From Thermomicrobiales bacterium (lineage in GTDB: Bacteria; Chloroflexota; Chloroflexia; Thermomicrobiales; UBA6265): a stretch of DNA of 64,000 nucleotides. The DNA lies in NCBI GenBank assembly GCA_019637585.1, contig JAHBVL010000002.1, positions 186,001 through 250,000 of the forward strand. The letters run 5' to 3'. A model generated the notes under the pieces. It was given only the letters and a program-made list of their open reading frames with translations, was not told where the DNA came from and made no database searches. Made by a program: the position numbers and the translations under genes. Below are positions 40,690 through 41,371 of the stretch, piece after piece. Numbering within the stretch: position 1 is the first letter of the stretch; every line of letters starts with the position of its first letter.

Positions 40690-40718
40690 TTGACATCCAA
40701 AATGCCCGAGCGTACAAT
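40690..40718 (+). promoter_or_regulatory. Near-consensus sigma-70 promoter of the HTH gene
   Basis: TTGACA (40690-40695), exactly 17 nt, TACAAT (40713-40718), about 62 nt before the HTH-protein start. This is the best promoter match seen in the window. Confidence 0.8.
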
Positions 40719-40746
40719 CCGACCGTACAGTCCGCAGTGTACGCTC
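40708..40746. promoter_or_regulatory. Inverted-repeat operator overlapping the -10 element
   Basis: GAGCGTACA (40708-40716) and TGTACGCTC (40738-40746) form a perfect 9-bp inverted repeat, with an additional CCGTACAG between them at 40724-40731. The left arm overlaps the -10 box. A bound repressor would block transcription; the downstream HTH protein is the obvious candidate for autoregulation, which is inferred. Confidence 0.6.
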
Positions 40747-40780
40747 GCAACGGCACGCGTTCACCGCGAAAGGAGTCAGC

Positions 40781-41317
40781 GTGGAAGGCGGTTCCCGCGA
40801 TTACCAGCAGGTGATCGATCAGGCGCTGCAGGTGGTCTATAGCCACCATCACCGGCTGATCAGTCAGCTGCATCCCGAGGCTTTTGAGCCCCTCACACTC
40901 GCGCAATTGCGTGAGGGACCATTGGGCCGGGATCTCTCGAAATTGGCGAAACTGGCACGCGGAGAAGTCCGTGAATCAAAGGAACAGGTTCTGATGGCGA
41001 TCGATTCGATCGTCCAGCTCCTCTTCTGGCCGGCCGCCTCCGATGACTACACAGTCCCGCGTTCGTTCTGGGATACCGATCTCGGGCGGATGCTCGCTTT
41101 GGCCAAATTCAAGGCCTTCTCGTCGAGCGAACTGGTAAGTATCGGAAACGCTGCACAGCAGCTCAATGTCACGCGCCCGACGATCTATCGATGGATGGAC
41201 GACCGGACGCTGAGCTATGTTCGCGATGATATGAGCGGCCGCACATTTGTGGTTCGCAAGGACATCGAGAACCTCAAACGGGTAGCCGCTGAACTGGGCG
41301 CCAGCGAAGCATCCTGA
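40781..41317 (+). CDS. DNA-binding protein with MerR/excisionase-type helix-turn-helix
   Basis: 178 residues from GTG 40781, with AAAGGAG at 40769-40775. Residues 1-110 are alpha-helical with no recognised domain (YQQVIDQALQVVYSHHHRLI, LGRDLSKLAKLARGEVRESK). The C-terminal ~60 residues hold a helix-turn-helix plus wing, SIGNAAQQLNVTRPTIYRWM followed by DDRTLSYVRDDMSGRTFVVRK, as in the HTH_17 excisionase/MerR group. A strong promoter with a symmetric operator precedes it, and a terminator follows, so it is a monocistronic, probably self-regulated transcription factor. Ligand and targets unknown. Confidence 0.88.
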   Translation: MEGGSRDYQQVIDQALQVVYSHHHRLISQLHPEAFEPLTLAQLREGPLGRDLSKLAKLARGEVRESKEQVLMAIDSIVQLLFWPAASDDYTVPRSFWDTDLGRMLALAKFKAFSSSELVSIGNAAQQLNVTRPTIYRWMDDRTLSYVRDDMSGRTFVVRKDIENLKRVAAELGASEAS

Positions 41318-41340: not shown

Positions 41341-41371
41341 AAACCGGCGGAACCCGAACCGCCGGTTTTTC
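41341..41371. terminator. Bidirectional intrinsic terminator
   Basis: AAACCGGCGG (41341-41350), loop AACCCGAA, CCGCCGGTTT (41359-41368) followed by TTT. A 10-bp perfect stem with A-run before and T-run after. It sits between the convergent HTH gene and alr and can serve both. Confidence 0.9.

Follow-up and report, generated by a model that had tools for sequence, protein, structure and literature searches.

The closest described counterpart of the locus reported here is BldC of Streptomyces. According to published accounts, BldC binds direct repeats at its own promoter and at that of smeA-sffA, a DNA-translocase operon (PMC5859096), represses some targets and activates others (PMC6428758), and has a wide regulon that includes cell-division and chromosome genes (PMC5859096, PMC6428758). 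Its repeats are given as AATTXXXX(C), 9 bp in length, and BldC-like proteins are said there to be widespread in bacteria (PMC5859096).

We analyzed a regulator gene of a Thermomicrobiales bacterium that lies in a stretch of 64,000 nucleotides (the window, 64 kb in all) and encodes a protein of 178 aa from a GTG start (40781-41317, + strand). The AlphaFold model of this protein (pLDDT 90.5) consists of six helices followed by a winged helix-turn-helix (HTH). Based on profiles and structure comparison, the C-terminal winged HTH (about residues 115-172; 41123-41296, + strand) is Xis/BldC-like. It passes the cut-off of the excisionase (Xis) family TIGR01764 (30.2 bits against 28.8) and scores below the cut-off of HTH_17, and its best structural matches are Xis (4j2n_A; Z 8.9, rmsd 2.0, 54 aligned) and BldC (Z 8.5 and 8.3; for 6amk_B, Z 8.3 with an rmsd of 1.4 Å over 51 residues), which agrees with the excisionase/MerR-like HTH named in the preliminary description of this DNA. 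SoxR (2zhg_A; Z 7.2, rmsd 2.9, 59 aligned) and RacA (5i44_B; Z 6.1, rmsd 3.4, 60 aligned) are less close, and families missing from these structure-comparison lists are not thereby excluded. With the whole model, Foldseek returned nothing from the PDB below E 0.001 (BldC was reached at an E of only 0.087, with probability 1.00), and a sequence search of the PDB gave best E values of 0.78 and 0.03. The MerR-like character of the HTH is visible in the SoxR and RacA matches; in contrast to MerR-type proteins, however, the HTH is C-terminal with no effector domain after it, and MerR_1 (PF13411) scores 12.8 bits against a gathering cut-off of 21.6. Inverted arms centred on GTAC are a feature of the mer operator, too.

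The N-terminal part of the regulator (about residues 1-113; 40781-41119, + strand) is predicted to be a conserved helical domain. Pfam assigns it to no family in the window protein, and among 33 members of the family only stray single-member matches were obtained. Its model (pLDDT 89.2) had no Foldseek PDB match below E 0.001, the best structural match reaching Z 4.2 (rmsd 4.1, 90 aligned); this lack of a clear match to the modelled domain leaves its fold open and does not make the fold new.

Matches to the regulator occur in 59 of the 61 Thermomicrobiales genomes, including 28/28 near-complete ones, and the match in G027 is only a paralogue with 34% identity. Among 56 loci from named records, 55 are long matches, including Thermomicrobiales, Sphaerobacter, Thermomicrobium, and Thermalbibacter, and the remaining one, from an Oscillospiraceae record, is short. 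A search across the phylum (301 genomes) gave matches in 19 genomes; five of these belong to the order, and the 14 from other orders matched at E values of 5e-16 to 9e-4. In the 420 bases before the matched stretch of six homologues from outside the order (the true start was not used), GTAC was absent from four loci and isolated in two. This breadth within the order is unlike that of functional excisionases, which are found on mobile elements together with an integrase, whereas the regulator gene is chromosomal and lies near alr and the gene for NAD(P)H-hydrate dehydratase. These two neighbors are often kept in relatives (30/55 and 43/55 loci, respectively), where genes were called as open reading frames chosen by length and codon-position GC, with approximate starts. 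In the window, the neighbors are a metallo-beta-lactamase-fold protein, a 119-aa ORF, alr (by Pfam), and NAD(P)H-hydrate dehydratase, and the space separating the regulator gene from convergent alr contains a GC-rich inverted repeat, AAACCGGCG with a spacer of 10, followed by a T run (41341-41368, no strand assigned), probably a bidirectional terminator. Paralogues with 28-40% identity (L079-L088) retain the N-terminal domain, and in most of them the HTH is strongly altered.

The regulator gene is preceded by a near-consensus promoter, just where the preliminary description had placed it, with the -35 element TTGACA (40690-40695, + strand) and, after a 17-bp spacer, the -10 element TACAAT (40713-40718, + strand), recognized from both the sequence and the orthologue promoters. 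In a scan for the σ-70 consensus, it was the single TTGACA-16/18-TATAAT site in the window with at most one mismatch. A ribosome-binding site, AAAGGAG, is found at 40769-40775 (+ strand).

A symmetric operator had also been proposed here, formed by a 9-bp inverted repeat and a central box. The repeat exists and is perfect, with arms GAGCGTACA (40708-40716) and TGTACGCTC (40738-40746), and extends to 10 bp once the next base pair is added (left arm 40707-40716, right arm 40738-40747, neither assigned to a strand); the central CCGTACAG is at 40723-40730. The left arm does overlap the -10 element, whereas the central box, also thought to overlap it, begins 4 nt downstream. A search for the two arms with a spacer of 10-30 gave one place in the window and matched 0/100 shuffles. 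However, the window contains 24 perfect 9-bp inverted repeats with a spacer of at most 40, GAGCGTACA/TGTACGCTC included, so that symmetry alone means little. Further arm-N21-arm sites in the genome, which the preliminary description suggested looking for, amount to a single one: in the 3.9-Mb genome, arms with a spacer of 21 are found at one place without mismatch and at one more with three mismatches, and the reversed control also gives one. Among 57 orthologue promoters, the arms are complete in one (that of the window) and in 5/57 if three mismatches are allowed; neither arm is conserved. We therefore rejected the outer inverted repeat as a functional operator. By sequence comparison, the element that exceeds chance expectation is instead the promoter together with a direct repeat, CGTACA-N7-CGTACA, so that an operator over the -10 element, ahead of the HTH gene, is retained in a different form.

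Box 1 of this direct repeat (CGTACA, 40711-40716, + strand) overlaps the -10 element and is conserved at 79-100% per position in 53 aligned promoters. Box 2 (CGTACA, 40724-40729, + strand) follows box 1 at a distance of 13 bp, where transcription is expected to start, and is the best-kept part, with per-position conservation in the same 53 promoters of C 100, G 100, T 100, A 98, C 98, and A 90%. A third box on the - strand (40738-40743, reading TGTACG on the + strand) is shared by a minority of relatives in either orientation, a downstream third GTAC being present thereabouts in 14/57 promoters, and a GTAC upstream of the -35 element occurs in 12/57. The pattern TTGAC-16/20-TANNNT-2/12-CGTA[CT] is present in 56/57 orthologue promoters, against 0/11 paralogue or fragment loci (L079-L089) and 0/5,700 dinucleotide shuffles; thus, among relatives, the inverted repeat is not kept upstream of orthologues and the operator with GTAC boxes is. 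Two CGTACA-type boxes 13 bp apart are found in 50/57 promoters; proteins of the BldC family occupy direct repeats cooperatively and head-to-tail. Where box 1 is decayed (L004, L005, and L022), the -10 element (TAGAAT) and box 2 are both retained.

The 57 promoters were drawn from 70 loci and represent 56 genomes (G035 contributes two); left out were two loci cut by contig ends (L030 and L076) and the paralogues or fragments L079-L089, some of which have short upstream DNA, and a second regulator copy in G028 has no locus and is absent from the set. The fixed-spacing alignment comprises 53 of them (L011, L052, L065, and L066 were omitted), with L068, L077, and L078 poorly aligned. All these counts refer to dependent samples, since they come from relatives, many of one family or genus.

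Box 1 overlaps the -10 element and box 2 lies over the expected start, so each might serve the promoter itself, and the boxes would then be conserved promoter or start-site sequence (extended -10 context and initially transcribed region) with no regulator involved. We regard this as very improbable: the direct repeat is absent from the 30 lexA promoters examined in the same order, the 12 promoters mentioned above have a further GTAC upstream of the -35 element, and palindromes of the box stand at differing distances from -10 elements (see below).

The regulator resembles BldC in its winged HTH fold, in the tandem direct repeats at promoters, in having its own gene among the (here predicted) targets, and in DNA-translocase or division targets. 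In contrast, BldC has 68 residues and is a winged HTH only, whereas in our regulator a helical domain of about 110 residues precedes the HTH, and the 9-bp AATTXXXX(C) repeats described for BldC differ from CGTACA boxes that are 13 bp apart and also occur as inverted pairs. By analogy, the regulator may work like BldC; as repeat length, consensus, and protein layout differ, we do not assign it to the BldC family.

The exact sequence CGTACAATNNNNNCGTACA has 41 matches in 38 of the 61 genomes of the order (reversed control, 0), of which 35 are, by position, at the regulator gene; outside the order it is present in 7/296 genomes. Of its six other places, one is upstream of thyX in G045, a genome of the genus Sphaerobacter, and another, in G050, has the same leading sequence. 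Three, found in related genomes, precede a gene for a similar protein, in L186 an N-acetylmuramoyl-L-alanine amidase by Pfam, and the last (in G015) precedes an ORF without assignment. In the window's own genome, the operator core gives two further matches if three mismatches are allowed, one of which belongs to the set of palindromes described next.

A scan of the window's own genome for pairs of boxes led to the palindrome TACGTACA-N3-TGTACGTA. With at most one mismatch, it has 33 sites (32 places, one being doubled at contig ends) in 22/61 genomes of the order and none in the control, while outside the order three sites were found in 296 genomes against eight in the control. The shorter form ACGTACA-N3-TGTACGT gives 95 sites in 45/61 genomes, compared to eight reversed-control sites; in the remaining 16/61 genomes there is no palindrome within one mismatch, and in the window there is none within three. 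Two incomplete genomes (G008 and G031, 65 and 70% complete) contain the palindrome, and the regulator gene was not found in them.

The palindromes tend to lie close to gene starts, often just after a -10 element. We examined 79 sites from the retrieved loci (L238 was dropped because it is the same contig-end place as L240) and found 64 close to an ORF's 5' end, a site being counted as such if it lay at most 350 bases before the start or 150 after it, compared to 32.5% of 2,840 random positions; only 10/79 were solely deep in an ORF, against 63% at random positions. A TANNNT ending 0-4 nt upstream accompanies 28/79 palindromes, versus 2-8/79 at shifted places, and a TTG at a distance of 15-19 bp was present in 15 of 29 TANNNT flanks, compared with 4 for two shifted sets (29 each). 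Because the last T of TANNNT can belong to the extended box TGTACGTACA, we repeated the test for TA given that T. TA then stands in first place in 16/96 cases at gap 0 and 19/98 at gap 2, and also in 9/48 at gap 7, against a background of 2.1% and 4/167 at gaps 14-34. Judging from these positions, the palindrome takes a place after the -10 element similar to that of box 2 ahead of the regulator gene.

A link between the two forms of the motif comes from G045 and G050, where the operator of the regulator is CGTACAATAGGTACGTACA and a second copy, CGTACAATATGTACGTACA, departs from it at 1 of 19 positions; thyX lies downstream of CGTACAATATGTACGTACA in G045 (Pfam Thy1 on the homologue L329), and G050 has the same leading sequence. 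The autogenous operator of the window's family, however, is a poor match to the palindrome (compared by eye, it deviates at 4 of 14 specified positions), and operator and palindrome are therefore linked via the box and intermediate forms and not by a single motif.

We then tallied the genes beside the palindrome by homology over 78 loci, with Pfam applied to representatives (L211, with two mismatches, is included, and the reference locus of each family is counted). One of 16 reference families, picked from the same 78 loci that were tallied, is downstream at 41/78 loci, reference loci included, and at 37/78 none is within reach. The most frequent target encodes a protein with LysM and a C39 peptidase (11 genomes), all others being found at one to four loci each. 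Among these are ftsK (three loci) and ftsA (two, with ftsQ upstream), L,D-transpeptidases (YkuD; three of one family and one of another), amidase, thyX, and uvrC (two each), alaS (three, two of them divergent from uvrC), greA (two, with a third greA 825 bases off), and one locus each for ribonucleotide reductase and a dGTPase-like HD protein. Further loci precede a DUF4015 protein (two), a NERD protein (two), and a protein without Pfam match (four), and NarL-type response regulator genes follow the palindrome at four loci (Pfam on L263). From their sequence context, we infer that the GTAC palindromes control wall, division, and dNTP genes.

The presence of NarL-type genes in this list raises the question of whether the HTH protein binds the tandem boxes and regulates only itself, the palindromes belonging to another regulator of the order, such as a NarL-type response regulator. 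The poor fit between the window-family operator and the palindrome, and the concentration of CGTACAATNNNNNCGTACA at the regulator promoter (35 of its 41 matches), are in line with such a division. On the other hand, the hexamer box is common to both forms, as are a similar place after the -10 element and, among the genomes searched, the near-restriction to the order, and in Sphaerobacter the operator and its second copy are nearly identical. The response regulator sites, moreover, amount to four loci, two of them in one genus, against 56/57 promoters with the regulator's own box. We consider a separate palindrome-binding regulator unlikely.

Since ftsK and uvrC among the targets looked like SOS genes, we tested LexA as the binder. 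The lexA gene is present in 54/61 genomes and in 28/28 near-complete ones, which made it the obvious candidate if another repressor used the boxes as operators and the HTH protein did not bind its own promoter, its gene being merely the most conserved target. LexA is excluded: all 30 lexA promoters retrieved from the order (L266-L295) contain a GAACNNNNGTTC-type box with at most one mismatch, and 0/30 contain the palindrome. LexA, in other words, is separately present in these genomes with its own box, although the two regulons would have some target types in common. The nearly equal taxonomic range of operator and regulator gene also argues against a different repressor, which appears to us quite unlikely. 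The most conserved site of a regulon is often located before the regulator's own gene.

We thus return to the HTH protein itself, which we infer to be the binder of the GTAC boxes; it is the simplest candidate because the same box is found in the same order with its most conserved site before the protein's own gene. Autoregulation is likely, being the simplest reading of the regulator promoter, and we hold it to be fairly probable, judging by these genomic patterns, that the HTH protein represses its own gene and controls wall, division, and dNTP genes through GTAC boxes. The regulator would bind CGTACA via its BldC-like C-terminal winged HTH. On the regulator promoter, two or more protomers would occupy the head-to-tail boxes over the -10 element and start site and block RNA polymerase, so that a strong promoter would be held down by its own product. 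Steric repression can be argued from the location of the boxes on these two elements, but not by analogy, because BldC both represses and activates. The regulator may, as the preliminary description suggested, be under tight self-repression and vary in level. Elsewhere, the same protein would act on the inverted pair ACGTACA-N3-TGTACGT, often at or just after the -10 element, and mostly as a repressor. Its targets would comprise peptidoglycan remodelling (LysM-C39 peptidase, L,D-transpeptidases, and amidases), division (ftsA and ftsK), dNTP supply (thyX, ribonucleotide reductase, and dGTPase), and repair (uvrC). Repression by the HTH protein would respond to a signal presumably sensed by the N-terminal domain, and the target genes would follow the growth or division state that this domain reads.

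More tentatively, the regulator could be a master growth and division factor of Thermomicrobiales, self-limiting and BldC-like with a new sensor domain, that uses tandem GTAC boxes for autogenous control and inverted ones for its regulon and thereby places peptidoglycan remodelling, FtsA/FtsK division, and dNTP synthesis (ThyX, ribonucleotide reductase, and dGTPase) on one signal; we see this as possible, though somewhat short of probable. Such a role is filled elsewhere by unrelated proteins, and narrow keyword searches of one open-licence library listed no paper whose title points to a regulator of division or wall genes for this group. If the HTH protein does act through GTAC boxes as proposed above, the order would have an order-wide regulator, an operator, and a first target list that could be tested in cultured Sphaerobacter and Thermomicrobium, and BldC-like proteins would gain a two-domain form using both tandem and inverted boxes.

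Several individual loci have additional sites. In four members of the window's family (L006, L007, L015, and L022), a perfect CGAACGTTCG palindrome, with a spacing unlike that of the LexA box, is located just upstream of the -35 element of the regulator and may be a second operator. At four loci of one genus (L014, L016, L017, and L018), TTGACA is immediately preceded by an additional site, GTACGTACAC or GTACATACAC. In one genome, two identical GTAC palindromes 20 bp apart (L311, positions 1501 and 1521) precede the LysM-C39 peptidase gene, and in two genomes of the genus Sphaerobacter (L247 and L249) a second site, GTGTACGTACAC, lies in the spacer of the response regulator promoter, starting 23 bp before the palindrome. 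Finally, in the window's own genome (L208, position 2803; C9:37301), a TTGACA-17-TAAAGT promoter with a GTAC palindrome is found between two convergent ORFs. Only a short, doubtful ORF lies downstream of this promoter, which may drive a small RNA.
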